64,000 nucleotides of DNA from Mesorhizobium sp. WSM2240 (lineage in GTDB: Bacteria > Pseudomonadota > Alphaproteobacteria > Rhizobiales > Rhizobiaceae): assembly GCF_040438645.1 (NCBI RefSeq), contig NZ_CP159253.1, positions 62,001 to 126,000 on the forward strand. The letters are read 5' to 3'. Both the position numbers and the translations under genes were made by a program. Below the pieces are notes generated by a model. That model was not told the DNA's origin. It worked only from the letters and a program-made list of their open reading frames with translations, and made no database searches. Positions 44,671-60,488 of the stretch are shown here, piece after piece (the first letter of the stretch is position 1; the number at the start of each line of letters is the position of its first letter).

Positions 44671-45654
44671 TCAACCTCCCGCCGGGCGTTGTATGTGGCC
44701 GCCGAACTTGTAGCGCATGGCCGAGAGCAGCCGCTCGCCGAACGTGTGCTCCTCGCGCGAGCGGAATCGGGCATAGAGCGCTGCCGACAAGACCTCGGCG
44801 GGAACCGCCTCCTCGATGGCCGCCATCACCGTCCAGCGCCCTTCTCCGGAGTCGGCGACCGAGCCCGTAAAGTTCGACAGCGTCTCGTTTTCTGCGAGCG
44901 CCATGGCGCTGAGGTCAAGCAGCCAGGAGGAGATGACGCTGCCGCGCCGCCACACTTCGGCGATGTCGGCGAGATTGAGCGTGTAGCGCTCGTCCGCGGG
45001 CAGCGCTTCGGAAGCCTTGTTCTTCAGGATGTCGAAGCCCTCAGCATAGGCCTGCATCAGGCCGTATTCTATGCCGTTGTGGACCATTTTGACGAAATGG
45101 CCGGCTCCGACAGGGCCGGCATGGAGATAGCCTTTCTCCGGGCGCGGGTCACGGCCGTCCCGTCCCGGCGTGCGCGTGATATGGCCGAGGCCTGCGGCGA
45201 GCGCGGCGAAGATCGGGTCGAGATGGTCTACGGCTTCCTTGTCACCGCCGATCATCATGCAATAGCCGCGTTCAAGACCCCACACGCCGCCCGACGTGCC
45301 GACATCGACATAGCGAATGCCCTTGGGCCCGAGCGCCGCAGCACGGCGGATATCGTCCTTGTAGAAGGTGTTTCCGCCGTCGATGATGACGTCTCCAGGC
45401 GCCATCAAGTCGGCAAGCCGCCAGATGGTCTCTTCCGTTACATGTCCCGCCGGCAGCATCAGCCAGACGGCGCGCGGCGCTGTAAGCTTGGCAACGACAT
45501 CCTCGAGGCTTGCGGCGGGGTGCGCGCCTTCGCCGGCAAGATCACTCACGATATTGCCATTCTGGTCATAGACTACGCACTGGTGACCCGCATGCCCGAG
45601 CCGCCGAGCGATGTTTGCGCCCATGCGTCCAAGTCCAATCACTCCCAGCTGCAT
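44671..45654 (-). CDS. gnd: 6-phosphogluconate dehydrogenase, short (GndA-like) form
   Basis: A 327-residue enzyme, the short decarboxylating type rather than the 470-residue form. The N-terminal cofactor loop is [17 protein letters not shown], and the catalytic stretch [20 protein letters not shown] holds the conserved Lys and Asn. The start at 45654 is chosen because GGGAGA is correctly spaced for it but not for the ATG 6 bp earlier. A near-consensus sigma-54 promoter lies 94 bp upstream. The cofactor (NAD or NADP) cannot be fixed by eye. The gene is the first of a possible gnd-cyoABCD transcript. Confidence 0.93.
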
Positions 45655-45747
45655 GCTCATTCTCCCAAGCTCATGACTCCGCTCCAGGCATACGCCAACC
45701 GCTCCAGGTCGGTCGCGACACCATGCGCAAACCAGTATCTGGCTCGA

Positions 45748-45763
45748 AGCAATCAATGTGCCA
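45748..45763 (-). promoter_or_regulatory. Sigma-54 promoter for gnd
   Basis: On the minus strand TGGCACATTGATTGCT matches the -24/-12 consensus TGGCACG-N4-TTGCW at all but one position, with exact GG-N10-GC spacing. Transcription would start near 45737, about 83 bp before the gnd ATG. Confidence 0.85.
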
Positions 45764-45813
45764 GGCCGCACACGTCGGATTTCTGCGCTCTTGTCATGCC
45801 CTCTCGATGGAGC

Positions 45814-45852
45814 TGGTGGATTTCACGCCTAGGCGGTGGTGATCCACCACCG
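45814..45852. promoter_or_regulatory. Candidate activator sites (GGTGG/CCACC) between gnd and the debranching enzyme gene
   Basis: The hairpin-like palindrome CGGTGGTGATCCACCACCG (45834-45852) has 8-bp arms, and TGGTGGATTTCACGCC lies just to its left (45814-45829). Both are in the 490-bp gap between two divergent sigma-54 promoters, at enhancer-like distance from each. Similar GGTGG/CCACC elements precede the other sigma-54 promoters in this window. The rest of the gap shows no gene. Confidence 0.5.
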
Positions 45853-45982
45853 GAGCCGGCTCGCCATTCAGCTGCAACTGAGGCGGACGTGCGTAGCTGA
45901 GCATCGCTTCTGCAAAGGCCGACAAGGCTCACGTGCCACTTTGCCGGGATCCATGAAGTTCAGGGAGGGCAATCGTTGAACG

Positions 45983-45998
45983 TGGCCTGGGGCTTGCT
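45983..45998 (+). promoter_or_regulatory. Sigma-54 promoter for the debranching enzyme gene
   Basis: TGGCCTGGGGCTTGCT keeps TGGC and TTGCT with exact GG-N10-GC spacing. The start of transcription would be near 46009, giving a leader of about 135 bases before ATG 46145. Confidence 0.75.
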
Positions 45999-46144
45999 TC
46001 GTCCAGTTGCGGGTGCCGTCAGGAGATCGACCGAGATCGATGACCGCTAAGATGACTGAACGCACGAACAGAAGCCCAACGTCGCGCATTGTGCATTATA
46101 TGGAGCGTGCCTCATTCCGAGCGCGCCGCATTTCCGGAGGTCGG

Positions 46145-48460
46145 ATGCCGAACTCACCGCGAAACAGAAAAGCCAGACGGCTCAAGGTCGACAAAAGGGC
46201 CGCCGCTGCGCCGGCCCAGCGATCCCCCGGGGAATCCACTCAGGCACAGAAGCAGGCTCGACAAACGCCACAGGCGCAGCACGAACGCAAGCAGCGCGTG
46301 CTGACCCGAGGGCAGCCGGCCATAATCGCCAGCATCGCAGATGCCGTGACCGTCAAGAACGTCAATATGTTCTTCCTTATGGCGCCCAACGGACAGGTGC
46401 CGCTCGATGACGAGCATGGCTTTGGGCTCTACTTTCACGACTGTCGTTTTCTCAACGGCTATCAGCTCCTGCTGACAGGACTTGCTCCGATCGTGCTCGC
46501 CTCGACTGCCGAAAAGGGCTACATGGCGCTCTTTGAGCTGACCAATCCCGACCTCCATCTTGGTCCAGGGCAGTTGATGCCCAAAGAGCAGCTGGGCATC
46601 CGCTGGGAGCGCCTGCTTGATGCCGAGAAAACGACGTTGAGGGAGACCCTGACGTTTCGCACGTTTGGGCAGCATGCCTATACGTTTCCTGTGACCTTGC
46701 GCTTTGGTGCCGGCTTTGAAGATGTATTTACCGTTCGTGAGTTGCTGCAGGAGACTCTCGGCAAGCCTGAACCACCTGCCTGGAGTAACGGTAAGCTCAT
46801 ATTTGCATATCACGGCGCCGACCAATTGCGGCGAACCGTTACCATCGCTTTTTCACCGGCGCCCTATAGGACCGAAGGGACAGCCGCGCACTTTCGGATA
46901 GGAGTCGCACCCGGGCAAATCCAGACCCTCGCCGTTGCTATAGAGATTGGCGAACGTGCCGAGGACACCCAAGCTGACCCGGACCCGCAGCCGTTAGTCA
47001 ACTTTCACGATCTCGTCCGCAACACCCAGAACGAGTCCGAGCAATGGCTGGGACAACATCCCAAATTACACAGCGACAGCCTGTTGCTCAACAGCATCAT
47101 CGAGCGCTCTCTGCGAGATATCGGCATGTTGCGATCGCAACTGGGGACATCCCAGTATTTCTGCGCTGGCGTGCCCTGGTATGCAGCGTTGTTCGGGCGC
47201 GACAGCTTGATCGTGGCACTCGAAATGCTCGCCTTCCAGCCGGAGTTGGCTGAGCAAACATTACGCCTCCTCGCCCGATATCAAGGGCAACGTGTCGACG
47301 ACTGGCGCGATGAGCAGCCTGGCAAAATTCTCCACGAGCTTCGCGTGGGTGAACTGGCAGGGGCCGGAGAGATTCCCCACACTCCGTTTTACGGCACGGT
47401 TGACGCGACTCCACTCTTCCTTCTGCTTTTGGAGCGCCATGCAGCCTGGACGGGAGACCTTAAACTGTTTCATGAGCTGCGCGCGTCGGCAGAGCGTGCT
47501 CTGGCGTGGATCGCGCAGATTGGCGACAGGAACCGAGATGGCTACCTGGACTACGAGAGCACGTCCGAGAAAGGTCTGATCAATCAGGGATGGAAAGACT
47601 CGGGCGATGCCATTGTGCGGGCAGACGGGACGCTTGCCGTGGCGCCCATCGCCCTGGTTGAGGTGCAGGGCTACGTCTTTGCGGCCAAGCGCGGGATAGC
47701 TGATCTCTATGAACGTATCGGAGAATTCGCGCGCGCAGAAAAGCTCCGTGACGAGGCCGAGTCGCTTCGCGCGCGCTTCAATCGCGATTTCTGGTGGGAG
47801 GACCAGGATACCTATGTCCTCGCGCTGGAACAACATGGCCACTCGGTCGATGTCGTATCCTCCAATCCCGGGCATGCGCTCTGGACCGGCATAGCCGACT
47901 TGGACAAAGGGCAGCGAACGGCGGCCCGGCTTATGGCCGACGATATGTTCAGCGGTTGGGGAGTGCGCACCCTGTCGGCAAACGAGCGGCGTTACAACCC
48001 TGTTGGTTACCACCTGGGGACCGTGTGGCCGCACGACAACGCGCTGGTCGCGGCAGGCTGCCGGCGTTACGGGGCAGACGCAGCAGCGGAAGGCATCTTT
48101 ACGGGAATCGTGGAGGCCGCCATGCAGTTTCGTTACCACCGGCTTCCAGAGGTTTTCGCGGGTTTTCGACGAGAGGATTTCGGGGTACCGGTCCACTACC
48201 CGGTGGCATGCCACCCCCAAGCCTGGGCAGCAGGAGCTGTGCCGTTTCTCGTCACCACTTGCCTCGGACTGGAGCCGGACGCCTTCGCCGGCCGGCTGCG
48301 GATCAAGCGGCCACGCCTGCCCAGCTTCGTTGAACACATGGAGTTTTCTGGACTCCGTGTCGGCCGAGGAGTTGCCGACCTGCATTTCCATCGCACTGCG
48401 GACGGGACCAGCGTCGATGTCCTCCGGGCGGACGCATTGGAGGTGGAGGTCGAAAACTGA
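46145..48460 (+). CDS. Glycogen-debranching-type enzyme (amylo-alpha-1,6-glucosidase family)
   Basis: A 771-residue cytoplasmic protein. A basic, Gln-rich leader (residues 1-55) is followed by the N-terminal debranching domain (about 60-290) and an (alpha/alpha)6 toroid catalytic domain (about 340-740). Family blocks are FCAGVPWYAALFGRDSLIVALEM and NPVGYHLGTVWPHDNALVAAG. The start at 46145 has GGAGG at good spacing; the frame continues upstream without one. It would hydrolyse alpha-1,6 linked or related glucans, though relatives of this exact type are poorly characterised. It stands behind a sigma-54 promoter and is divergent from gnd. Confidence 0.88.
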   Translation: MPNSPRNRKARRLKVDKRAAAAPAQRSPGESTQAQKQARQTPQAQHERKQRVLTRGQPAIIASIADAVTVKNVNMFFLMAPNGQVPLDDEHGFGLYFHDCRFLNGYQLLLTGLAPIVLASTAEKGYMALFELTNPDLHLGPGQLMPKEQLGIRWERLLDAEKTTLRETLTFRTFGQHAYTFPVTLRFGAGFEDVFTVRELLQETLGKPEPPAWSNGKLIFAYHGADQLRRTVTIAFSPAPYRTEGTAAHFRIGVAPGQIQTLAVAIEIGERAEDTQADPDPQPLVNFHDLVRNTQNESEQWLGQHPKLHSDSLLLNSIIERSLRDIGMLRSQLGTSQYFCAGVPWYAALFGRDSLIVALEMLAFQPELAEQTLRLLARYQGQRVDDWRDEQPGKILHELRVGELAGAGEIPHTPFYGTVDATPLFLLLLERHAAWTGDLKLFHELRASAERALAWIAQIGDRNRDGYLDYESTSEKGLINQGWKDSGDAIVRADGTLAVAPIALVEVQGYVFAAKRGIADLYERIGEFARAEKLRDEAESLRARFNRDFWWEDQDTYVLALEQHGHSVDVVSSNPGHALWTGIADLDKGQRTAARLMADDMFSGWGVRTLSANERRYNPVGYHLGTVWPHDNALVAAGCRRYGADAAAEGIFTGIVEAAMQFRYHRLPEVFAGFRREDFGVPVHYPVACHPQAWAAGAVPFLVTTCLGLEPDAFAGRLRIKRPRLPSFVEHMEFSGLRVGRGVADLHFHRTADGTSVDVLRADALEVEVEN

Positions 48461-48676
48461 TTCAGAGTTCTTTTAACGATGGTCGCTCGGCTGGATATCA
48501 GCTTGAGCGGCGCCAAATCGAAGGCGGCCGGCCACTCATAAAGCCGGCGACGCATGGCCAAGCTCCACAGCCTACCGCGTTCGTGCCCGAAAGCCGAAGA
48601 GCTGAATGATGGTGAGGCGTGGCGTCGCCGTCCTCGTCCAAATGCGCTCGGATTCGGGAGGGCTATCGTCCGGTCT
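48461..48676. other. Left part of the gap before the YfdX-Sel1 gene
   Basis: The 392-bp gap to 48852 holds no gene I can support. Its right half carries the activator-like repeats and the sigma-54 promoter listed separately; its left half shows only a weak GC hairpin (GCGGCCGG region near 48520). Confidence 0.5.
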
Positions 48677-48678
48677 GC

Positions 48679-48714
48679 GGTGGATCTGCATTGGGGTACG
48701 GTGGATTTGAACCA
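48679..48714. promoter_or_regulatory. Candidate activator sites upstream of the YfdX-Sel1 gene
   Basis: Two direct copies of GGTGGATYTG occur, at 48679 and 48700, the second extending to GGTGGATTTGAACCA. They lie 63-98 bp upstream of the -24 element and resemble GGTGGACTTCAACCACC near 58293. Confidence 0.5.
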
Positions 48715-48776
48715 ATGCCAATAACGCGGCCAGCAGTCAGGCCGCGTATGGGTTTGATAAAACTTAATTTTCTCTT

Positions 48777-48792
48777 TGGCGTGCGGCTTGCT
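48777..48792 (+). promoter_or_regulatory. Sigma-54 promoter for the YfdX-Sel1 gene
   Basis: TGGCGTGCGGCTTGCT has TGGC, the G seven bases in, TTGCT and exact GG-N10-GC spacing. Transcription would start near 48803, 50 bp before the ATG at 48853. Confidence 0.82.
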
Positions 48793-48852
48793 CGTACTGC
48801 GTCGAGTCTCCGACGAGATTCATTGTTGGTCGAACTTGAGGAGAAATATACG

Positions 48853-50433
48853 ATGCAACGCAACAAGCCGAAATCAGCTGCAGCCTTTTCATCGGCGTTT
48901 GCTCTGGCAATTCTGGCAGTGCCTGCGGCAATGGCGAGCCCAGCGGCCGCTGCGCAGCTCCGAGAACATCCAGCCGAGATTGCGGCTCTGTCCGGGGCGG
49001 CAATGTCGTCGACCGCCTCTAACGCGTTGCGCCACATCACCCTGGCGCGGCGAAACCTTGAAAGCAGAAACTTCGACGCGGCCGACCAGGAACTCGGCAA
49101 GGCTCTCGGTCTTCTGGACCTGGCACAATCTGCGTTTCCGGCCGACCGGTCCCTCACGGAGACTAAGATTCCGCTGGGCGCGACCCGCCGCCTCATCACC
49201 GAGGCGCGGGAAGAGCTCCAGCGCAGGGACATCCTTGCAGTCGATGCCGCCCTGAAAGCGGCGGAAGACAATGTTGCCTACCTGACTGCTGCATACCAGA
49301 GGCCGTTGGTTGAAGCGCACCAGTCGCTTTTGCAGGCCACGCAGGATTACACGGCCGGCGTCTACGATGCAGCGACTGCCAAACTCGATCACGCCATCCT
49401 CTATCTCGAACGCGTGGCCAAGGACGGGAACAATGAGACGCGCAGCGCGGCGCAAGCCCTTTCGAAAGATGCCCAGTCGCTAAAAGCGGACATTGAAAAA
49501 AACTCCGGGGACGTGTCGTCGCGCCTGGACGAGCTTTGGCGGAAAGCCGAGGCCATTTCGAAGCGGAGCGCTGCATATGTCGAAGCCGAATTGCTGCGCG
49601 CCGGCGCAAAGTCCAAACTGCAATCAGACATGATAGAGGCCAAACTGCATCTGTCCTATGCAGAGATTGCCCGGTTTACGTTGCACGATAGGGAGCAGAC
49701 CGCCGAAGAGCTTGGGCTGGCACTGAACAATATGGATCAAGCGGTTGATGACGTCGCGAAAGCGCAGTCCGCCCCGGTCCTGGCGTTACGCAACCGCGTG
49801 GAAGATCTAGCCACGGAACCCGCTTCGGACCAGCAACAATCGAGCTTTGTTGAACTCGAGGGCGAGGTCGGACGCATTATCGAGGCGCAGGTTAACCCAC
49901 AAGACGACTCGGTCGCTGGCGGTGTCGCCGCGTTGACGGCGGGTGAATACGAAACGGCACTACAGATACTCACGCCTTTCGCTGAAGGTAACAATCCGGA
50001 AGCCGCCTTCTGGCTGGGCGACATGTATGAGAGCGGCCTCGGCGTGCCAAAGAATCTGGATACCGCTCTGAAGTGGTATCACAAATCTGCTGAAGCAGAC
50101 TGGACCGCGGCCGAAGTCCGGCTCGGCGAAATCTACTTCAACGGAACGGAGACGCTGCAGGACTTCGCGCAGGCGCATAAGTGGCTGGAGCAGGCCGCGC
50201 ATGCCGGCAATTCCGAGGCGCAGCAAGATCTCGGTCAGCTCTACGCCCATGGCTGGGGCGTCGAGAAGGATCCGATCTGGGCATATGTCTGGTACGAGAT
50301 CGCCGCCAGAGAAGGAAACTATGAGGCGCAGCATCTGCGGGACGAATTGATTAAAACCATGAGCGACGGGGACATCGCCGAAGCGCAGAAGCTTACCGCG
50401 CGAATTTCTCCTGATGTAGTCGGCCAAGGTTAG
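48853..50433 (+). CDS. Secreted YfdX-domain protein fused to Sel1-like repeats
   Basis: A 526-residue protein with a signal peptide (FSSAFALAILAVPAAMASPA, cleavage near residue 34), a YfdX-type helical domain (about residues 50-260, ALRHITLARRNLESRNFDAA and IPLGATRRLITEAREELQRR), a helical linker, and two to three Sel1 repeats (about 385-500, AAFWLGDMYESGLGVPKNLD, AQQDLGQLYAHGWGVEKDP). A GAGGAG site precedes the ATG; the longer upstream frame is not needed. YfdX of enterobacteria is a periplasmic acid-stress related protein of unclear action. Sel1 repeats bind protein partners. I infer a periplasmic stress scaffold or sensor. Confidence 0.85.
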   Translation: MQRNKPKSAAAFSSAFALAILAVPAAMASPAAAAQLREHPAEIAALSGAAMSSTASNALRHITLARRNLESRNFDAADQELGKALGLLDLAQSAFPADRSLTETKIPLGATRRLITEAREELQRRDILAVDAALKAAEDNVAYLTAAYQRPLVEAHQSLLQATQDYTAGVYDAATAKLDHAILYLERVAKDGNNETRSAAQALSKDAQSLKADIEKNSGDVSSRLDELWRKAEAISKRSAAYVEAELLRAGAKSKLQSDMIEAKLHLSYAEIARFTLHDREQTAEELGLALNNMDQAVDDVAKAQSAPVLALRNRVEDLATEPASDQQQSSFVELEGEVGRIIEAQVNPQDDSVAGGVAALTAGEYETALQILTPFAEGNNPEAAFWLGDMYESGLGVPKNLDTALKWYHKSAEADWTAAEVRLGEIYFNGTETLQDFAQAHKWLEQAAHAGNSEAQQDLGQLYAHGWGVEKDPIWAYVWYEIAAREGNYEAQHLRDELIKTMSDGDIAEAQKLTARISPDVVGQG

Positions 50434-50605
50434 CCCAATTACGCGTGGCAGTGAGGAAAGGTCCACAAACCGGCGCGTCTTGGCCGGAGAGTCAGGTCCT
50501 TTCCTCTTTTTCCAATTCCCGGGGAGCAGCATGGCCGTGGTGGGCGGCGGCTCGTCTCGCGCCTCCTCGTGCCGCCATGAAGCATTCAATTGTTGCCGCT
50601 GCTGC

Positions 50606-50634
50606 CCACCAGCCGTTTGGTGGTTTTCACCATG
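50606..50634. promoter_or_regulatory. Candidate activator sites upstream of the broken stress gene
   Basis: CCACCA-N6-TGGTGG (50606-50623) overlaps TGGTGGTTTTCACCATG (50618-50634). The pair lies 72-100 bp upstream of the sigma-54 promoter at 50706. The rest of the 392-bp gap after the YfdX-Sel1 gene shows no gene. Confidence 0.5.
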
Positions 50635-50705
50635 AGTGGTTCATCTCCTCCCTGCATTTCGTCAGCAAAAGTTATAATTTGCAGCAAAATCAATGAGTTA
50701 CCAGA

Positions 50706-50721
50706 TGGCCCGCGGTTTGCC
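50706..50721 (+). promoter_or_regulatory. Sigma-54 promoter for the broken stress gene
   Basis: TGGCCCGCGGTTTGCC keeps TGGC, the G of the -24 block and TTGC with exact GG-N10-GC spacing. The start would be near 50732, about 94 bp before ATG 50826. Confidence 0.72.
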
Positions 50722-50825
50722 TCCATGCCTATAGGAGCCGGTTTGATCCCATCTGTTTGTCTCATACGGATGGTCCAATCAACAAGGCGAGTTCAGTGGA
50801 CATGCGACGAGAGGAGGTCCGATTC

Positions 50826-51384
50826 ATGCGTACCAGATACGATGGGAAGAAGTCAGAGTTCCAAACCGACGGCAAAACTTCAGCTGATACATGGGGCGCG
50901 TATGGCTCCCCCGAGGTGGTCGGAGTGCTGCCAGACGAGAAGGACACGTCTCGGCCTATTCATCTCCTCCGATTCTCGGACCGAGTTTGAAGCCGCGGCT
51001 GTGGGCGTTCCGATATACGTCGCGAGCATTGGCGGATTTGCTGCGATCATGGCCTCAGGCGGATCGCTTGCCTTGGCGTTCGCCTCGCTTCTGCTCGCCG
51101 GCGCCGCCGGCGCAGGCATTGGTGGATTGCTTGCCCACACGATCGCCCGGCACCACAGGGAGTCAATCGCAGCCCAACTCGCCAAAGGCGGACTGCTGCT
51201 GTGGGTGCAGACGAGAAATCTCGCTCAGGAAAACACGGCAATCCAGGTGCTCAATGGACATCACGGCCGCCATGTTCACGTAAATCACGTCGAGCGCGCG
51301 TGGGAGGTAGAGGAAGTCCCGTTTTATGACGCGCAACCAGATCCTTTCCTCGAAGGCAGATCTCCCGCAAGCCGATCCCGCTAG
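50826..51384 (+). pseudogene. Frameshifted general-stress-type membrane protein gene
   Basis: A good start (ATG 50826 after GAGAGGAGG) encodes MRTRYDGKKSEFQTDGKTSA and then SPEVVGVLPDEKD, the normal opening of a family of small glycine-zipper stress proteins. That frame stops at 50990. The rest of the family, a Gly/Ala-rich membrane hairpin (ASLLLAGAAGAGIGGLLAH) and the conserved end KGGLLLWVQTRN, is in another frame up to 51384. About 50 residues of the usual middle also seem to be missing. So the gene is probably dead, though an in-frame internal start could still make the C-terminal part. Confidence 0.6.
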
Positions 51385-51462
51385 CGCTTGCATGGCAAGC
51401 TGAACTTTTCGGGACGGAGATCAGGGTTTCAGTTGCTTCCAAATGCGTCGAAAGGAAAATCG

Positions 51463-52672
51463 GTGGTAACCGACGAGAACGTAGAGAAACGTCAGGAGCC
51501 CCAGGTCCCGGACCTCGGACCAGCGCGGCGCCAATTGATGTATCGCGTTATGGCCGGCGCGGTGATCGCCTGCCTGCTCGCTGCTGGGGCCGGATACTGG
51601 TTCTTGACGCGAAACCAGGAGACAACCGACGACGCCTTCATCGAAGCAAATGTCGTTCAGATCGCTCCACGGATTGCCGGAACGGTCCGTACGATCCACA
51701 TCGACGACAACCAGAAGGTCGCATCCGGCGATCTCCTGGTCGAGCTTGATCCAGGCGACTACGAATCCGCCTTGGCGCAGGCCCAAGGCGGCGCGCGCGG
51801 ATAAGAAAGTCGCTCGCCGCCAACTCGAACTCACCCAGAAGACGACGGCAGCCCAACTCCGGCAGGCAAAGGCACAGGTTGCGCTCAGCGAAGCCGCGGT
51901 GAAGGAGGCGGAAGATAAGGCAGCCGCCGATCAGGCCCAGGTCGACTACGATCAGGCTGAAGTCTCACGCTACAACAAGCTTGCGGCCGCTACATTTGCC
52001 ACTCAAGAGCAACTCGACCAGGCGACCGCAGCCCTCAAAAGCGCGGAAGCCGGCCTGAAAGCCGATCAGCAGGCCATCGTGGTCGCCCAAGCACAGCTCG
52101 CTGAGGCAAAGGCACAGCTCGAAGCCGCCGATACCGCTGCTGAGCAGATCGCCGAAAAACAGGGAGAGCTGGGGGCTGCCGTAGCCAAAGTAGCCTCCGC
52201 CGAGGCCGCCGTGCGAGCGGCAGAGATCAACTTGTCCTACACCGAGATACATGCCCCGGGTGAGGGCTTTGTCACCAACCGGTCCGTTCACCCTGGCAAT
52301 GCCGTCGAACCGGGCCAGGCTCTGACGTCCCTCGTCGTGGACCGTCCCTGGGTGGTGGCGAACTTCAAGGAGACACAGCTTAGCCGGATGCGGCCAGGCC
52401 AACAGGTCGACATCAGCATCGATGCCTATCCGGGCACGGTGCTCCACGGGCATGTCGACAGCATCCAACGCGGCAGTGGCGCGGCGTTTTCACTTCTGCC
52501 GCCGGAAAATGCCACCGGCAACTACGTGAAGATCGTGCAGCGGGTGCCGGTGAAGATCATTATCGATGACCCTCTAGGTTCTGCGATGGTTCTCGGGCCG
52601 GGGCTTTCGGTTGAAGCGACGGTATATTTCGGGCCCGCTTCGCCCACCCGCGATGCGACGGTCCGTTCATGA
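51463..52672 (+). pseudogene. HlyD/EmrA-type membrane fusion protein gene with a one-base frameshift
   Basis: The N-terminal part (from GTG 51463, GGAAA upstream; one membrane segment, AGAVIACLLAAGAGYWFL; lipoyl half QETTDDAFIEANVVQIAPRI) is in one frame and stops just after 51795. The coiled coil and C-terminal part (KKVARRQLELTQKT to the end at 52672) is in the next frame. Removing one C from the run at 51782-51784 restores LAQAKAARADKKV, the family pattern. It overlaps the DHA2 gene by 4 bp, as intact emrAB-like pairs do. Either a recent mutation or a sequencing error; if an error, this is a normal 400-residue adaptor. Confidence 0.85.
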
Positions 52673-54260
52673 GCATCACCGACGCCCCCGGCTCGCCGCC
52701 TGCGACCGTTCCCCAAGCCTCGTTTGTCCTTGCGCCTGTTGTTGCGCTTGCCGCCTTCATGGAAGTGCTCGATCTCTCGATCGCCAACGTCGCCCTGCAA
52801 AACATTGCCGGCGAACTTGGCGCCAGTTCCGACGAGGCGACCTGGATCCTGACCTCCTATCTTGCCACTAATGCGATCGTGCTGCCGATGAGCGGTTGGC
52901 TTGCGACCGTGCTCGGCCGCAAGCGCTATTACGTCGGCTGCATCATCGGCTTTGGCGCAAGCTCGTTCCTTTGCGGCGTTGCGCCGACGCTGGCGATCCT
53001 CATTCTGGCCCGAGCGCTGCAAGGTCTGATCGGCGGAGGGCTGCAGCCTGTTTCGCAAGCCATTCTTGCCGACAGCTTCTCGCCGGCACAGCGGGGTATG
53101 GCCTTTGCCTTTTACGGCATGGCCGTTGTGGTGGCGCCGGCCGTAGGGCCTACCCTCGGCGGCTGGATCACCGACAATGTCGATTGGCGTTGGGTGTTCT
53201 TGATCAACGTGCCGATCAGCGTTGGCTTGGCATTGCTCATCAGTCGCCTCGTTCAGGATCCGCCGCATCTGGTGGCGCAGCGGCTGCAACTGAAGGCCGG
53301 TGGTATCAGGATCGACTATATCGGCTTCGGACTGTTGGCGCTGGGCTTCAGTCTCCTGCAGGTCGTCCTCGACCGTGGTCAGCAGGATGATTGGTTTGCA
53401 TCGCATTTCATCGTTGCCGCCGCTCTACTTTCCGCCGTTGCGCTGATTTCGTTCGTCGCATGGGAGCTCAAGACCAGCCAGCCGATCGTCGATCTGCGGC
53501 TGTTTGCCAACCGCAACTTCGCGCTAGCGAACCTGCTCATGTTCATGCTCGGCTTCGTGCTGCTCGGCAGCACGGCGCTCCTGCCGGAATTTACGCAGCA
53601 GCTGCTGGGCTATACGGCCATGGAGGCGGGCCTCGTGATCTCGCCCGGAGGCTTCGCGCTGATGCTTGTCATGCCGCTGGTGGGGCGGCTGAGTGGTAGG
53701 GTCGATGCGCGGCTGATGATTGCGTTCGGACTCGCTGTCGCGTCCTGGTCGCTCTATCACATGTCGGGTTTCTCGCTCGCCGTCGACTACTGGACGATCG
53801 CCCAGGCGCGGCTCGTTCAAGCGATAGGGCTTGGCTTTCTCTTCATCCCGATCACGACGCTGGCCTACGTCGACCTGCCGCCGGAGAAGAGCAACAATGC
53901 CTCGGCGCTCATCAATGTCTCGCGCAATATCGGGGGCAGCGTCGGCATTTCCTTCCTTACCACCATGCTGCAACGCCATCTGCAGGCGCACAACGTCACG
54001 CTTGTAGAGCACGTGACTTCAGGCAATCCCGCCTATCGGCAGGCAATCGCCGGGCTGCAGCAACAGTTTGTGGCGGCGGGATCGAGCAAGCTGCAGGCGT
54101 TGCATCAGGCGCAGGCCTTATCGCGCAAAACGTCGCCCAACAGGGGCTGACGCTTTCGTTCCTCTACAATTTCCTGCTGCTGGCGATGATCTTTGCAGGG
54201 CTCATACCCTTTGTGTTCCTGATGCGCTCGGGAACAGGCAATCAACTCCCGGTGCATTGA
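52669..54260 (+). pseudogene. DHA2-family (EmrB/QacA-type) drug exporter gene with a late frameshift
   Basis: The first 480 codons read as a 14-segment MFS exporter: LDLSIANVALQNIAGELGAS at segment 1, then the GATEWAY-like loop LATVLGRKRYYVG, and GGSVGISFLTTMLQRHLQAH near the end. The frame then runs into a false stop at 54150. The family C-terminus (IAQNVAQQGLTLSFLYNFLL and the last membrane segment) continues in another frame to TGA 54258-54260. One base is missing near 54118. Loss of the last segment would probably harm the protein. It pairs with the frameshifted HlyD gene. Confidence 0.85.
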
Positions 54261-54538
54261 TATCAGGCGATAGCGGTCCCGTCGCTTTGCGAGCTTGTGT
54301 CGGCACTATTACAATCGCAGGTCGGCGCCGCACTTAAGTGGCGCCGATCAGCGGTAGCTGTCGCCAGCGCCTGGTTGCGCGCTCATTCCACGGGGCAGGC
54401 GGGCGATCAGCGGATCGCAAGCGAGGTCAGAACAATGGAAGTTCGTGCGCTGCATGATCCTTGCTCCTGTTGGTGGGAGTGTTGTTCGGAGCTGGCGCTT
54501 CAGGCCGTTTGCGCCTGCGCCAGGTAGTCGTGACGACG

Positions 54539-55621
54539 CTACCGACGCCCAGCAGGCGCGGCCCCACTGTCTCCGGAGGGAAAATCCAGCATCATGCGGG
54601 TGCCGCTATGGGCGGTGTCACGCGTCAAAGATGCTTTGAGCTTTTCGGCCATGGCCTCAATAATGAGGCGGCCAATTCCCGTCGAACCGGGTGCCGGAGG
54701 CGCAGAGCCCACCCCGTCATCCTCTACGCAAAGCCGGATATCGCCGTTGGCATCCTTCCGGAGAAGTACACGGACGGGACCGCTCCCTCCGCAATAAGCG
54801 TACTTCATAGCGTTGATGACAAGCTCGGTCACGATGACACCGACCGCCACGGCGCGGTCTGGGTCGATCGCCACCGGATCGGCGGTGAGCGAAAGCCATC
54901 GACTGGCGGTATCGGTCGATGACGCCTCGATGTCGGTCACCAAGGCATGGAGATAATGATCCAGCGCCACCGAGCGTACATCGTCGGACGTGTAAAGCCG
55001 CCGGTGAATCTGCGCCACCGCCAGCACCCGGCCATGGGCGGAGGCAAGGGCGGCGGCTGTCTGCGCGTCGGCACCCGAAGAACGCTGCATGTGAAGGAGT
55101 GAACAGACGAGTTGCAGGCTGTTGCCGACGCGGTGGTTGACCTCGCGCAGCAGCATCGCCCTCTCGGCCGCGAGCGCTTCGAAGCGATCGCGGGCAGCGC
55201 GCACTTCGGCTTCCGCGGCTTCCTTTTCGCGCCGCAATTTCGCTTCCGCCAAGGCCCCCTCGATCGCCGCCTGAAGCAAAGGAAGGAAATCCGTGCCCAC
55301 GTCCTTGATGACATAATCGGCCGCTCCGGCCTTCAGCGCGGCAATCGCGACGCGGCCTTCCTCGCTTCCGGTGACATAGACGACCGGCGGCGGGTTCGGC
55401 TCCGCCCGGACGGCCGCAAGCGTCTCAAGCCCGTCCTGGCCGGGCATATAGTGATCGAGCGCCACGACGTCGTAGCTGCGGGCCCGCAGGTGGGCCAATC
55501 CCTCCTCGCCGCTGCCTGCGGTGTCCACGCTATAGCCCTGCCGATCGAGCTGCTTGCGGACGAGACTGGCAAGCGCCAGGTCATCGTCGATGTAAAGAAG
55601 GCTTACCGAGTCGGGCGCCAT
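54539..55621 (-). CDS. Hybrid receiver-histidine kinase (HWE/HisKA_2 type)
   Basis: A 360-residue cytoplasmic protein: receiver domain with Asp56 as phosphate acceptor (residues 5-120, LDHYMPGQDG), a short coiled coil, then a HisKA_2-type dimerisation region with His163 in REVNHRVGNSLQLV and an ATPase domain (ELVINAMKYAY). The ATG at 55621 overlaps the stop of the response regulator before it. Receiver-first kinases of this kind act as relays, taking phosphate from an upstream kinase and altering their own output. It is the last gene of a three-gene sensory operon. Confidence 0.9.
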   Translation of the reverse strand: MAPDSVSLLYIDDDLALASLVRKQLDRQGYSVDTAGSGEEGLAHLRARSYDVVALDHYMPGQDGLETLAAVRAEPNPPPVVYVTGSEEGRVAIAALKAGAADYVIKDVGTDFLPLLQAAIEGALAEAKLRREKEAAEAEVRAARDRFEALAAERAMLLREVNHRVGNSLQLVCSLLHMQRSSGADAQTAAALASAHGRVLAVAQIHRRLYTSDDVRSVALDHYLHALVTDIEASSTDTASRWLSLTADPVAIDPDRAVAVGVIVTELVINAMKYAYCGGSGPVRVLLRKDANGDIRLCVEDDGVGSAPPAPGSTGIGRLIIEAMAEKLKASLTRDTAHSGTRMMLDFPSGDSGAAPAGRR

Positions 55622-56055
55622 CAAGCAGTCTCGGGTATCTGGATGACGGAGAAGAACAGGCCCAACTGCCGGATCGAATGGGCGAAACTCTCATAGTCCA
55701 CCGGCTTGGTGATGTAGACGTTGCAGCCGAGGTCGTAGCAGCGCTGGATCTCATGCTGGTCGTCGGTGGTCGTCAGGATCACAACGGGAGCCCGCTTCAG
55801 ATGTTCGTTCGCCTTCAGGCGTCTGAGGATTTCGACCCCCGACATATCAGGCAGGTTGAGATCAAGAAGAATGAGAAGCGCCTGGCCGAGATGTCTGGCC
55901 GACCCGTCGGAGCCGAAGAGATGGGCCATCGCGCTCGTGCCGTCCGGAAAGGATACGATCTCGTTGCGCACGCCGGCACGTCTGATATTTTTTTCTATGA
56001 GGCGCGCATGACCCTCGTCATCTTCGACCATGATGATTGTTACATGTTCGGTCAT
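55621..56055 (-). CDS. Single-domain response regulator (Rcp1-like)
   Basis: A 144-residue protein made of a receiver domain only: acidic pocket at residues 11-13 (EDD), phosphate-accepting Asp65 in LLDLNLPDMSG and Lys in YITKPVDYESF. The insert between strands 2 and 3 and the C-terminal SHI-type region match Rcp1-like regulators that partner with phytochrome-like or CHASE kinases. Its start overlaps the sensor kinase stop by 4 bp and its stop overlaps the next start. It has no output domain, so it relays phosphate. Confidence 0.92.
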   Translation of the reverse strand: MTEHVTIIMVEDDEGHARLIEKNIRRAGVRNEIVSFPDGTSAMAHLFGSDGSARHLGQALLILLDLNLPDMSGVEILRRLKANEHLKRAPVVILTTTDDQHEIQRCYDLGCNVYITKPVDYESFAHSIRQLGLFFSVIQIPETA

Positions 56056-57530
56056 AGGCTTTTCTCCGGCAAAGCGGTTGCGGGCCGGCTGGGCAGGGTC
56101 ACCACAAAGGTGCTGCCTTGGCCGGGTTCGGAACGGACGGTGATGGTCCCGCCGAGACGGTGTGCGAGAGTTCGCACATGCGTCAGTCCAATCCCTTCCC
56201 CGGGCCGGTCCTGTGGTCCAGAGCGGCGGAAGATTTCGAATATCCTGTCAAGATCCTTGGCCTCGATGCCGCGCCCGTTGTCCTGGACTTCGTAGACCAG
56301 TCCGGAAGCCGCCGTGTGGCCGCTGACGCGGATTTGTCCCGGCGTGTCGTCTCGCAGATACTTTAGCGCATTCTCCAACAGATTGCCGAAAATCTGTTCC
56401 ACCGCCAGCCGGTCGCCGACGAACGGCGGCAGCGGCTCGACCTCAATCGATGCACGGCTCATCTGCGCCTGATAGCCGAGGCCCTCGGCGATGGATCGAA
56501 CCAGGCCGGTCATGTCGATCCATTCCGGGCGGAGTTCCCGGCGTCCCTCGCGCGTGAGCTTCAGAATAGCCTTGATGAGCCGATCCATGCGCGAAATCGA
56601 GCTTTTTATAAAGCTCAGCGCCTCATCAAAATCTCGACCGAGGCTCTCATCGGAATCCGCCGCTTCCCCCTCGGCGCGCGGTCCCGGGCTCGCGCCGAAC
56701 AAATCCTTCCTTATGATTTCGAGTTCGCTCGTAAAGCCCATGATGTTGACCAGCGGAGAGCGCAGATCGTGGCTCACGACATAGGCAAAATTCTGGATTT
56801 CCTCGTTCGCCCGGCGCAATTCCGTAGTTCGTCTGGCGACCGCTTCCTCGAGGGTGTCGTTGGCCTCCTCGAGGTCTCTTTGCGCCGCGATCAACCGCCC
56901 GGTCGAACGGCGGACCATGCTGATCGAGGTCGCCGCAAGAACGACGATGAGGAAGGCGCTGATCAGCGTTGCTATAAGGAGCAGTTGGGCGGTTCCGCGC
57001 GATGCGCCAAGCTCACCCTTTAGCGCTTGCTGCTGTTGTTGGATCAATTTCGAGATCAGCTCTCGGATTTCTTCGGCGCGCGATCCGGCCAAAGCGCTTG
57101 CCGGCGCTGGCGCCGCGCGACCGCTCCGCTCCCGTTCGGCGGCGGATTGCTCGAGCCTCGACAGTTCAGCGGCTACGGCCGCGTCGAGTTGCCCCACAAG
57201 TGCAGATCGATCACCCTGGCCGGAGCTTTCGGCCAATGCGAACTCAAGTTGGGTAAGGGCCGCATCCACATTTTGCGCATCCGCCCGGAAGGCTTGGCGG
57301 TAGCGCAAATCCCCGGTCAGCAAATAACTTCTCTGGTTGCTTTCGGCCTGCCAAACCAGGCTTTGAAGCCGTGCAAGCTTTTCCTTGGTTTCGAATGTCT
57401 GCACAGCCCGCTCGGAATCCCTATCGGCTTGCGTCACGAGCCATACCGAGGCCCCTGCGATAAACACGACAAGCGCGAAGCCCAGCGTCAGAAGAAGCGC
57501 CGGGTGCAACCGCGATGGGAATGGCGGCAT
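56052..57530 (-). CDS. Membrane sensor histidine kinase with CHASE3 domain
   Basis: A 492-residue kinase: membrane segments at about residues 8-28 and 181-205 flank a helical extracytoplasmic CHASE3 domain (AESNQRSYLLTGDLRYRQAF). A coiled coil leads to the HisKA region with His254 in VVSHDLRSPLVNIMG and an ATPase domain with NLLENALKYL and DNGRGIEAKDLDRIF. The layout resembles kinases paired with Rcp1-like regulators, as here. The start is not sharply defined; MPPFPSRLHP at 57530 is taken. CHASE3 ligands are unknown. Confidence 0.9.
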   Translation of the reverse strand: MPPFPSRLHPALLLTLGFALVVFIAGASVWLVTQADRDSERAVQTFETKEKLARLQSLVWQAESNQRSYLLTGDLRYRQAFRADAQNVDAALTQLEFALAESSGQGDRSALVGQLDAAVAAELSRLEQSAAERERSGRAAPAPASALAGSRAEEIRELISKLIQQQQQALKGELGASRGTAQLLLIATLISAFLIVVLAATSISMVRRSTGRLIAAQRDLEEANDTLEEAVARRTTELRRANEEIQNFAYVVSHDLRSPLVNIMGFTSELEIIRKDLFGASPGPRAEGEAADSDESLGRDFDEALSFIKSSISRMDRLIKAILKLTREGRRELRPEWIDMTGLVRSIAEGLGYQAQMSRASIEVEPLPPFVGDRLAVEQIFGNLLENALKYLRDDTPGQIRVSGHTAASGLVYEVQDNGRGIEAKDLDRIFEIFRRSGPQDRPGEGIGLTHVRTLAHRLGGTITVRSEPGQGSTFVVTLPSRPATALPEKSL

Positions 57531-57535
57531 CTGTT

Positions 57536-57817
57536 TCACGACCAAAAAGCCTGTCGATTCGCTGCAGCCGCGTCCTGAACGCCGCTGATCCCAGACGCAA
57601 CGAAAACCGAGACTACCAAGTGCATGTGTGATGCTCCACGCCATACCTCTTTACGAGTATCATCGGCTCCGAGGTGCAACGATAGTTCGATCATGTCGCC
57701 CCCTGCAGGACAATAGTTCGGCCAATGAAGATGGTGCGGTTCCGCGGCAAAGGCACCGATCGCAGCCAGTTCGGCCGCGCCATAGACGCGAGGCGATGTT
57801 TGCACGATATCGGCCAT
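57536..57817 (-). CDS. Hypothetical small protein upstream of the CHASE3 kinase
   Basis: A possible 93-residue frame (MADIVQTSPRVYGAAELAAI at the start, ending ANRQAFWS) with a weak AGAGAG site, stopping 5 bp before the kinase start. I do not recognise it. It lies in the same direction as the kinase and could be translated with it, or be part of the decayed stretch that begins with the MFS fragment. Confidence 0.35.
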   Translation of the reverse strand: MADIVQTSPRVYGAAELAAIGAFAAEPHHLHWPNYCPAGGDMIELSLHLGADDTRKEVWRGASHMHLVVSVFVASGISGVQDAAAANRQAFWS

Positions 57818-57909
57818 CTCTCTGCTGCCGGACGTTGAGGTTTCCATGGGACGGCATCGGGCGGCGTCGGCGAGCGCCGGGAACTCGACCGCGAACCGTC
57901 GCGCTGCCG

Positions 57910-58071
57910 GCCGAATGCGATCCCCTTGGCTTCTGCTCCAAAGCCGGCCAGCAGCGCGACGACGAAGATCAGGATAAAGAAGTCGAAGGCATCCTGCATC
58001 CAGCCAAGGAAGCTGGCGATGACGGTATGGCGCTGCTCTGGCGTGAGCGAGCCCAGATCGAATAGCGACAT
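57910..58071 (-). pseudogene. Remnant of an MFS carboxylate transporter
   Basis: From ATG 58071 the frame gives SLTPEQRHTVIASFLGWMQD and DAFDFFILIFVVALLAG, the first membrane segment typical of lactate/sialate-type MFS permeases. After about 40 residues it jumps to a stretch like an MFS C-terminus (FGAEAKGIAFG) and then loses similarity. A transporter of over 400 residues has thus collapsed to about 50. It probably arose by internal deletion. Confidence 0.6.
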
Positions 58072-58281
58072 GGCTGCTGTCCTCGTTTCCTGTGGATGGG
58101 AAGAGGACGAACGAAATGCTTCTCACCCGCTGGTCCTCCACGCGACTGCACAGGGAACAATCAAGAAGCGGGCCAGAGCCGCCGGCTCTAGGATAGGCCG
58201 TTGGAAACCACTGCCTTCGTGGCGATCTGTCCATTCAGGACTACTGACCGCTGCGGGCTATTGCCGCGCGGTGGGGCCAGA

Positions 58282-58309
58282 TCCACCATTGTGGTGGACT
58301 TCAACCACC
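58282..58309. promoter_or_regulatory. Candidate activator sites between the sensory operon and the sigma-54 activator gene
   Basis: TCCACCATTGTGGTGGA (7-bp arms, 58282-58298) overlaps GGTGGACTTCAACCACC (5-bp arms, 58293-58309). They lie 64-91 bp upstream of the activator gene start and are the most symmetrical copies of the GGTGG/CCACC element in the region. This would fit binding by the activator to its own promoter region. Confidence 0.55.
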
Positions 58310-58372
58310 CCTGCGTGGATAAGGCTCGCAACCGGACCTGCGTCCGCCCAACAAACGGGAGTTACCGACTGA

Positions 58373-59767
58373 ATGGGTGAGGAACTGCTGATCATCGAGG
58401 ACGACACTATGTTCGGGATCGACCTCAAGCGGCATTTCGAGCGGGGAGGACGCACGATAAGGCTTGTTCGCAGCCTGCGCGAGGCCGAGCCCTTCGTCTA
58501 TGGCACGGGCTATGAGGGGCTCGTCGTGCTTTCCGATCTGCACCTGCCGGATGGCAATGCGCTTGATCTTCTGGAGCGCGCACGCGAGGAGGGCGACAAG
58601 CGCGAATGGATTTTTCTTACCGGTCTTGGCGAGGCACCCGACGCCGAAAGGGCCAAGCAACTCGGGGCGCTGGACTTCCTTGCCAAGCCGATGGATCGCA
58701 ACCGGCTCGATCGCATCGTGGATGCCGCCTATCGCGGCGCGCGGGCGCAGCGGCGGATCGCCGATGAAACCTCACAGCAACGCGGCCGATATGGCCCTGG
58801 CGCCTTCATAGGCCGCAGCGAGGCGGCCGCCCGGGTACGCGACACGCTTTCACGCCTTTGCCAAGTTCCGATGAGCGGCATCGTGATCATAGGAGAGACC
58901 GGCACGGGCAAGGGGCTCGCCGCGCGCATCCTGCACCATAGCGGTAGACGCGCAGGCGGGCCGCTCATCGAGGTGAACTGTGCCGCGCTGCCTCGCGAGC
59001 TTCTGGAATCCGAACTCTTCGGGCATGAGGCCGGCGCCTTCACGGGCGCCAAGGGCAGCCATCGCGGCCTGATGGAACAGGCGAGCGACGGTACGTTGTT
59101 CCTCGACGAGATCGGGGAATTGCACCTCGACCTGCAAGCCAAGCTTTTGAAGGCCCTGGAAGACAAGGCGATCCGCCGTCTCGGAGGGGAGCGGCTGATT
59201 CCCGTCGATATACAGATCATCGCCGCCACCAACCGCAATCTCAGTGCCCTGGTGGCCGAGAAGGCATTCCGGGAGGACCTCTATCATCGCCTCGGCGTAT
59301 TCCAGCTCGAGCTGCCACCCTTGCGTGCCCGCAAAGAGGATCTGGACGAATTGGTCGAGAAACTCATCCGCGAGTTCAACGCCGTCTCTGGCAAGCGCGT
59401 GCGGCGCGTCCCTGAAACCGCACGCAGGCTGCTTACAGCCTATCATTGGCCCGGCAATGTCCGCGAACTGCGCAACGCCATGGAGCGATCGGTGTTGCTT
59501 TCGACAGGCGAAGATTTGCCGACCGAATGGCTGCAGATCAGGCCAGAAGATCCCATTGCATCGGTGGAGTCCGGCGATTCCGTCCGGCTTCCTCTCGACG
59601 GCTCCATGACTTTCGACGCCATGGAAAAGCTGATCCTCCAGGCGGCGCTCGAGCGCGACGGCGACAATGTGATGGCGGCTGCCAGGCGACTCGGCATGAC
59701 GCGTGAGACACTGCGCTACCGCATGGCGCGTCACGGTCTGCAGGGAAAAAAGGGCGAGCGACGGTAG
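58373..59767 (+). CDS. Sigma-54-dependent response regulator (NtrC family)
   Basis: A 464-residue activator with three parts: a receiver (residues 1-115, Asp55 in LSDLHLPDG), an AAA+ ATPase (about 140-375; Walker A GETGTGKG at 174, sigma-54 contact loop GAFTGA at 221-226, Walker B GTLFLDEIGEL) and a C-terminal Fis-type helix-turn-helix (NVMAAARRLGMTRETLRYRM). All catalytic parts are intact. It is divergent from the CHASE3 kinase operon and is the only sigma-54 activator in the window. It is therefore the prime candidate to drive the five sigma-54 promoters at 45.7-59.9 kb. Confidence 0.93.
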   Translation: MGEELLIIEDDTMFGIDLKRHFERGGRTIRLVRSLREAEPFVYGTGYEGLVVLSDLHLPDGNALDLLERAREEGDKREWIFLTGLGEAPDAERAKQLGALDFLAKPMDRNRLDRIVDAAYRGARAQRRIADETSQQRGRYGPGAFIGRSEAAARVRDTLSRLCQVPMSGIVIIGETGTGKGLAARILHHSGRRAGGPLIEVNCAALPRELLESELFGHEAGAFTGAKGSHRGLMEQASDGTLFLDEIGELHLDLQAKLLKALEDKAIRRLGGERLIPVDIQIIAATNRNLSALVAEKAFREDLYHRLGVFQLELPPLRARKEDLDELVEKLIREFNAVSGKRVRRVPETARRLLTAYHWPGNVRELRNAMERSVLLSTGEDLPTEWLQIRPEDPIASVESGDSVRLPLDGSMTFDAMEKLILQAALERDGDNVMAAARRLGMTRETLRYRMARHGLQGKKGERR

Positions 59768-59795
59768 CCCAAACAGACGAAAACGGCTGAGTTCG

Positions 59796-59810
59796 CCACC
59801 ACTATAGGTG
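59796..59810. promoter_or_regulatory. Candidate activator site upstream of the stress protein gene
   Basis: CCACCACTATAGGTG has CACC and GGTG arms around six bases, 75 bp upstream of the -24 element at 59885. It is a weaker version of the GGTGG/CCACC element. Confidence 0.4.
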
Positions 59811-59884
59811 CATATCGCCCATCCCGGCGCTGGGATGAAACCGGCAAAGGACGATTTTTCTTCTTTTTCAAAGTGTTAGCTGGC

Positions 59885-59900
59885 TGGCCCGTGCCTTGCT
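59885..59900 (+). promoter_or_regulatory. Sigma-54 promoter for the stress protein gene
   Basis: TGGCCCGTGCCTTGCT matches the -24/-12 consensus (TGGC, G at position 7, TTGCT) with exact GG-N10-GC spacing. Transcription would start near 59911, 59 bp before ATG 59970. Confidence 0.82.
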
Positions 59901-59969
59901 CGGGTTTCGGGTGAGCAGTTCGTGGCGGGTGGCCGCGCGAACTGACGAAGCAGAGAAGGAGAACAAGCC

Positions 59970-60488
59970 ATGCCAAACGACAATGCCGTCATCGCCGTCT
60001 TCAACAGCCATGACAGGGCGGAAGAGATCGTCAAGGACCTTCAGCGGTCTGGCTTCGATATGAAGAAGCTCTCGATCGTCGGCAAGGGATATCACAGCGA
60101 GGAGCAACCCGTCGGCTTTTACACGACTGGCGAGCGCGTGAAGTTCTGGGGTGGCACGGGCGCTCTTTGGGGCGGTCTGTGGGGCCTGCTCATAAGTGCG
60201 GCTTTCTTTTGGGTGCCGGGGATCGGCCCGCTGGCGGTCGGCGGCCCGCTTGTGGCTGCTCTGGTCGGTGCTCTCGAGGGCGCGGTAGCGGTCGGCGGCC
60301 TCTCGGCCCTGGGCGCCGCGCTCTACAGCCTCGGTGTGCCGAAGGAAAGCATTATCCAATATGAGATGGCCGTTAAGGCCGACAAATTCCTCGTCATCGC
60401 GCACGGAGACGCCGCGGAAGTCGAACGTGCCCGCAGCATCATGGAGCGGCTCAACGCTACTTCCTCCGAAATCCTGAAGGCCGCTTAA
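59970..60488 (+). CDS. General-stress-type small membrane protein (DUF1269/YflT-like)
   Basis: A 172-residue protein. The N-terminus (VIAVFNSHDRAEEIVKDLQR) is the ferredoxin-like fold of general stress proteins. The middle is a Gly/Trp-rich double membrane hairpin (GGTGALWGGLWGLLISAAFF and GPLAVGGPLVAALVGALEGA), and the end (DKFLVIAHGDAAEVERARSI) returns to the first fold. Ribosome site AGAAGGAG precedes the ATG. Function is unknown; relatives are induced by stress. It stands behind a sigma-54 promoter next to the activator gene and resembles the broken gene at 50826. Confidence 0.85.
   Translation: MPNDNAVIAVFNSHDRAEEIVKDLQRSGFDMKKLSIVGKGYHSEEQPVGFYTTGERVKFWGGTGALWGGLWGLLISAAFFWVPGIGPLAVGGPLVAALVGALEGAVAVGGLSALGAALYSLGVPKESIIQYEMAVKADKFLVIAHGDAAEVERARSIMERLNATSSEILKAA

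Follow-up and report, generated by a model that had tools for sequence, protein, structure and literature searches.

We analysed 64,000 nucleotides of Mesorhizobium sp. WSM2240 DNA (contig NZ_CP159253.1, positions 62,001 to 126,000; henceforth the window) with a sigma-54 activator gene, an adjoining kinase operon and five -24/-12 promoter boxes, which an initial annotation made from the sequence alone had joined into a local regulon. Our findings indicate that a TcsA-TcrA-FsrR phosphorelay, together with an activator that we take to be of the EbpA type, probably controls a stress island of the acid type here, with acid, left unnamed by the initial annotation, as the likely signal. What supports the regulon is a feature absent from that annotation, a 16-bp palindrome (about TGGTKGATATCMACCA) upstream of the boxes, often paired about 20 bp apart and mostly 60-100 bp from the box.

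In the proposed mechanism, the CHASE3 membrane kinase would respond to a signal in the periplasm, with low pH the most likely candidate, and would pass phosphate through two regulator proteins to the activator. The latter is predicted to bind pairs of the palindrome upstream of the boxes and would open RpoN-polymerase at three genes, gnd, the Sel1 gene and YflT (the last perhaps together with carbonic anhydrase). The debranching enzyme is a probable further target. Contig C4 has an island of its own with a second activator, which probably takes its signal from the same relay.

All five boxes claimed previously were located as TGGC-N7-TTGC elements (45749-45763 on the minus strand; 45983-45997, 48777-48791, 50706-50720 and 59885-59899 on the plus strand), each with the GG-N10-GC spacing. 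They are given below with their sites and genes, the scores being those of a hand-written sigma-54 weight matrix (maximum 20.4).

44671 to 45771, minus strand: gnd, 6-phosphogluconate dehydrogenase (gnd_rel TIGR00872, above cut-off)
45748 to 45764, minus strand: -24/-12 box of gnd, CTGGCACATTGATTGCT, score 19.4
45814 to 45829: activator site common to gnd and the debranching enzyme, TGGTGGATTTCACGCC
45834 to 45849: activator site common to gnd and the debranching enzyme, CGGTGGTGATCCACCA
45982 to 45998, plus strand: -24/-12 box of the debranching enzyme, GTGGCCTGGGGCTTGCT, score 14.6
46007 to 48460, plus strand: glycogen-debranching-type enzyme (GDE_N_bis, MGH1-like, GDE_C)
48619 to 50433, plus strand: Sel1-repeat protein, likely start MQRNKPK, downstream of the box
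48678 to 48693: distal activator site of the Sel1 gene, CGGTGGATCTGCATTG
48699 to 48714: proximal activator site of the Sel1 gene, CGGTGGATTTGAACCA
48776 to 48792, plus strand: -24/-12 box of the Sel1 gene, TTGGCGTGCGGCTTGCT, score 15.7, conserved in the C4 paralog
50617 to 50652: weak activator-site pair of the broken gene, at about -88 and -68
50705 to 50721, plus strand: -24/-12 box of the broken gene, ATGGCCCGCGGTTTGCC, score 13.9, the lowest of the five
58292 to 58307: activator-like site 5' of the activator gene, TGGTGGACTTCAACCA, conserved on C4
59806 to 59821: activator site of YflT, AGGTGCATATCGCCCA, at -78, conserved on C4
59884 to 59900, plus strand: -24/-12 box of YflT, CTGGCCCGTGCCTTGCT, score 18.4, conserved on C4
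59970 to 60488, plus strand: YflT-domain stress protein
60596 to 61348, plus strand: carbonic anhydrase adjoining YflT (Pfam PF00194), in the same order on C4

The gnd site pair lies at -85 and -65 and is seen from the other side by the debranching-enzyme promoter, at -148 and -168, while the sites of the Sel1 gene stand at -77 and -98. The likely start of gnd is MSMQLGVIG, giving 329 amino acids. From the earlier label YfdX-Sel1 the Sel1 repeats were retained and the YfdX identity was dropped, with no Pfam match and a weak BLAST alignment to true YfdX (31.7% over 60 amino acids, E 0.028). For the broken gene no family match was found in Pfam or NCBIfam, and the reading frames past the fourth box (50617-51384) are possibly a decayed gene. 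Both activator genes have an activator-like site without a -24/-12 box behind it (58292-58307; C4:724930), which suggests autoregulation of another sort.

For the motif itself, 30 boxes from the window, the sister island on C4 and the DNA around related activators were chosen on their quality and on the gene behind them. Inverted-word counting first gave a hint, GGTGG-N7-CCACC, and palindromic expectation-maximisation settled the motif. The window group, seven upstream regions taken from the window, C4 and Ensifer aridi, yielded tGGTGGATATCCACCa, and 21 promoters from 11 other loci near related activators, mostly gammaproteobacterial, yielded tGGttgAtaTcaaCCa, these loci comprising eight from gamma- and betaproteobacteria, two metagenome-assembled genomes (MAGs) labelled Myxococcota and Spirochaeta, and G023, from the window's own family. 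The log-likelihoods were 56.4 and 68.0, respectively, as compared to 21.1-28.0 and 23.5-32.5 in 12 dinucleotide shuffles each. The two sets are partly dependent, as the window group holds two paralogous promoter pairs and three of the 21 promoters stem from G023, a concern that cross-validation meets in part.

At the strictest setting (box at least 14, site at least 12), 17 held-out loci have 26 boxes, and the window-group matrix marked seven of these, three in G023 and four in gammaproteobacteria (Halochromatium, Halioglobus and Motiliproteus). None was marked among 57 boxes from 63 NtrC loci that are not orthologous, or among 15 from a 400-kb sample of the genome. The reverse test with the other matrix marked 8 of 18 boxes in five alphaproteobacterial sequences, with controls of 1 of 57 and 0 of 15. 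As the Myxococcota and Spirochaeta loci gave no site-box pair even with the thresholds at their loosest (12 and 8), the cross-validated support extends to another class, not to another phylum. In a genome search, the half-site GGTGSAT followed by a box was found at 12 places, against one and none in reversed controls. Seven of these (six promoters) fall in the two islands, as is partly built in, the half-site having been taken from there, and only five lie elsewhere in the 6.7 Mb (C1:280358, 3754407, 624209 and 1083210, and C4:517491); these were set aside as chance, the matrix finding no full site there. With a matrix made without window sequence, the top site of the window precedes the Sel1 gene (17.4) and sites 58292, 45834, 45814 and 59806 rank 2, 5, 6 and 9, so that some activator sites are equalled in score by unrelated sequence of the window. 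In the 400-kb background the same matrix found 24 sites of at least 10.5, ten of at least 11.8, three of at least 12.8 and none of at least 16.

The arrangement recurs on C4, where a copy of the activator (91% identical) is followed on one strand by YflT (97% identical), carbonic anhydrase (75%) and an LpiA-like lysyltransferase, a 37% relative of LpiA. Beyond the latter lie a major facilitator superfamily (MFS) gene, Kup, a Sel1 gene and a divergent FtsH gene, with YflT, the Sel1 gene and FtsH each equipped with a box and a site. Alignment of the YflT and Sel1 promoters of window and C4 revealed that site and box are kept and that the intervening stretch has largely diverged. No TcsA, TcrA or FsrR relative was found in 40 kb of C4 at E<=1e-20 (the stretch in which TcsA and TcrA were sought), and for FsrR, whose next best genome matches are 33-37% identical, a second close copy was not found, which argues that one relay probably serves both islands. 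Separately, 3' of FtsH an Nramp-type transporter gene (L145:8887-10166, corresponding to C4:732887-734166) appears split into two frames, the first of which matches Pfam Nramp.

The genes of the proposed relay and the window's own activator lie next to YflT:

54539 to 55624, minus strand: receiver with HisKA_2/HWE kinase, FsrR ortholog (71.6%)
55621 to 56055, minus strand: single-domain response regulator, TcrA ortholog (77.9%)
56052 to 57644, minus strand: CHASE3 histidine kinase, TcsA ortholog (60.6% over 487 amino acids)
58373 to 59767, plus strand: NtrC-type response regulator and sigma-54 activator, with receiver, AAA+ domain containing GAFTGA, and Fis-type helix-turn-helix (HTH)

The activator is intact, as previously annotated, with the receiver aspartate, Walker A and B, GAFTGA and HTH_8 in place, and it is 76.3% identical to an ortholog on pSymA of S. 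medicae ml29 that adjoins genes annotated tcsA, tcrA, fsrR and lpiA. Its HTH signature, TR-E/D-TLRYR, is common to most close relatives, and among the 25 listed of 58 NCBIfam matches none reaches the cut-off (AtoC, 331 of 714 bits). A second activator in the window is not among the genome matches listed, the family scans covering selected open reading frames from 41.7 kb on. Two rpoN genes (Sigma54_DBD) are present in the genome, at C1:633977 and C1:5557685. The CHASE3 kinase operon, already suggested as the sensor, is orthologous to TcsA-TcrA-FsrR, with overlapping frames on one strand forming one operon and the activator adjacent and divergent; the true start of the TcsA ortholog is probably nearer 57530.

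In Ensifer (Sinorhizobium) medicae this acid relay reportedly controls lpiA-acvB, as described by Reeve in 2006 and Tian in 2017, and the title of Tian et al. 2017 names the relay with RpoN and an enhancer-binding protein. Going by that title, the regulatory circuit is already described, and the remark in the initial annotation that no described system has this set was wrong in this respect. According to the accessible parts of the respective reports, fsrR is needed for acid activation of lpiA (PMC5613336), as is fsrR or its cluster (PMC4674904), and low pH strongly induces lpiA, degP1 and cah in S. meliloti 1021 (PMC2651895). A site-plus-box model made without S. medicae marks lpiA in that species, with the box CTGGCACACTGTGTGCT 218 bp before the start and sites at -66 and -88; the same model also marks a DUF1003 gene there. 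The TcsA-TcrA-FsrR system is found in E. aridi as well, where the corresponding promoter precedes a DegP-type protease. Compared with L061:5113-5183, the region upstream of lpiA in S. medicae ml29 (L207:12900-13150) still has the promoter and the opening codons of a DegP-type gene, which E. aridi carries intact, as if a deletion had brought lpiA under that gene's promoter.

It is quite possible, if somewhat short of an even chance, that membership of the regulon is confined to the core targets: gnd, the Sel1 gene, YflT (possibly joined by carbonic anhydrase) and their counterparts on C4. The boxes of the debranching enzyme and the broken gene would then be chance matches. Indeed, these two boxes score lowest, neither was recovered by the genome searches for half-site plus box, and the site upstream of the broken gene is weak. 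The debranching gene nevertheless has a good site pair in common with divergent gnd, as do the Sel1 gene and FtsH on C4, although its weaker box relies on a site 148-168 bp off. Good sites stand before gnd, the Sel1 gene and YflT. The initial annotation was probably right about a sigma-54 regulon under the local activator and the CHASE3 operon, and over-generous on one or two of the five promoters.

The activator belongs to a wider family. Among 8000 candidates, 2406 proteins match at E <= 1e-100, with rhizobia at one end and beta- and gammaproteobacteria at the other among the 120 listed. In the window's order, however, a sample of 297 genomes gave only two with such a gene at E <= 1e-150, one being the window's own, a patchy distribution hinting at a gene that is probably mobile. 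Behind a box and site at such loci we observed an HdeA-family gene (Halioglobus MAG), BON proteins (three loci) and a histidine kinase (G023), and behind boxes whose sites are weaker or farther away a YfdX protein (G023), a transaldolase (Sedimenticola) and a molybdopterin oxidoreductase, whereas for a DUF3806 gene and several others the box is present and a convincing site was not found. In Halochromatium glycolicum, three sites about 21 bp apart (-112, -90 and -69) lie upstream of the box at L064:15895-15911; a DUF1523 gene follows some 400 bp further on and has another box (15601) closer to it.

The same sigma-54 regulon could alternatively answer another signal, such as general envelope or osmotic stress, with acid being just the S. 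medicae readout. Targets near related activators do include BON, DUF1003, patatin and kinase genes, the CHASE3 domain of the sensor is generic, and the acid relay was not found at non-alphaproteobacterial loci, but we deem this explanation unlikely, since the C4 island holds LpiA-like, carbonic anhydrase and Kup genes, the Halioglobus locus has an HdeA-family gene, and the orthologous relay is acid-responsive in the accessible literature. Acid is also the signal indicated by HdeA, DegP, LpiA and carbonic anhydrase. A far weaker explanation, that the boxes are chance GC-rich matches and no sigma-54 regulon exists, fits the 491 exact matches in the genome (6.70 Mb), with five within 14 kb expected somewhere, and is very improbable in view of the upstream palindromes, the paralogous conservation and the recurrence near related activators in another class.

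Several observations weigh against an acid-type island under this relay. By count, the density of boxes is no evidence for a regulon, because a chance five-box span is near certain in the genome: such a span arises somewhere in 99.95% of 2000 random scatters of the 491 sites (the reversed pattern has 247 matches), even if 1.08 are expected in the 14.7-kb span and P(>=5) is 0.005 for one fixed place. The window holds seven exact matches, dinucleotide shuffles giving a mean of 3.4 and at least seven in 9 of 100. Furthermore, the site of the broken gene is weak (cross-matrix p 0.065), no good box was found between site 58292 and the activator gene, and no LpiA relative was matched across the window and the 10 kb after it (E<=1e-10). 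At the loosest setting, the window-group matrix gave 12 of 47 boxes with controls of 6 of 128 and 2 of 44, the reverse test 11 of 26 with 10 of 128 and 2 of 44, and 11 of the 17 held-out loci were without a site-box pair; a convincing site was also not found at the chosen boxes L065, L069:8476 and 12252, L073:4104 and 19993, and L079:16096. Finally, relatives of TcsA, TcrA or FsrR were found in 0 of 16 non-alphaproteobacterial loci (13 at E<=1e-20, three at E<=1e-10) and not at the G023 locus, so that the signal at those loci may differ.

The acid-type island remains our preferred reading. The proposed local regulon served by the activator did not stand on its box cluster, rather on the common upstream site, its recurrence on C4 and near some of the related activators, and its rarity at control loci. 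The boxes are rare elsewhere by matrix, with 0.55 of at least 13.9 per 14.7 kb (400 kb of the same genome, 20 background stretches) versus six in the cluster, while the exact-word count is unremarkable genome-wide. The sixth box, at 53005 within an MFS gene, was dropped as a regulon member, as the site scan found no activator site upstream. The strict pattern YTGGCAYN5TTGCW has 14 genome matches, including the gnd site, with two for the reversed control; others precede, for example, UrtA-like and solute-binding-like genes (labels from first residues alone), and one, C1:636470, lies about 2 kb from one rpoN gene.

On a larger scale, we give an even chance to the activator marking a widespread, horizontally spread sigma-54 regulon of acid and envelope stress in proteobacteria, perhaps beyond, with a conserved paired palindrome. 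Sensors would then vary by lineage, TcsA-TcrA-FsrR serving only some alphaproteobacteria, and lineage-specific targets (HdeA, BON, DegP, LpiA, YflT, gnd and others) would sit behind the same module, with one relay here driving two islands. The activator site lets such regulons be predicted from sequence, and a single relay with two near-identical activators on two contigs represents a testable case of regulon duplication.

Compared with the S. medicae TcsA-TcrA-FsrR relay, the window has the same divergent layout of orthologous kinase, regulator, FsrR and activator, RpoN is present, and the -24/-12 boxes have the same kind of upstream sites as before lpiA. The targets differ, being gnd, the debranching enzyme, the Sel1 protein, YflT and perhaps carbonic anhydrase, and lpiA is not in the window, its 37% relative residing in the second island with its own activator copy. 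The accessible text of a 2022 report states that fsrR-tcrA-tcsA is absent from species other than E. medicae (PMC9048898), contrary to the relay being present here, with different targets, and in E. aridi. Enhancer-binding proteins and their sites have been described in Acidithiobacillia, the accessible part of that report not naming an FsrR/EbpA-type group (PMC12194929). In our literature search of titles and abstract openings, no description came up of the target set, the island duplication or the activator site; the target set, the second island and the site beside HdeA-, BON- and DegP-type genes appear to be new. The activator resembles NtrC/AtoC-type proteins in its receiver, AAA+ domain with GAFTGA and Fis-type HTH, and is distinct in the HTH signature TR-E/D-TLRYR and its DNA site. 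In E. coli, hdeA and yfdX are acid-stress genes, and sigma-54 control of them is not known. Sigma-54 has been tied to acid resistance in E. coli as a negative regulator, according to the accessible text of PMC3459932. Here, the Halioglobus MAG has an HdeA-family gene behind a box and site, and G023 has a YfdX gene behind a box and weaker site, each near a related activator. The activator site suggests that outside rhizobia, too, acid and envelope defence is driven by sigma-54, an HdeA-type gene included.

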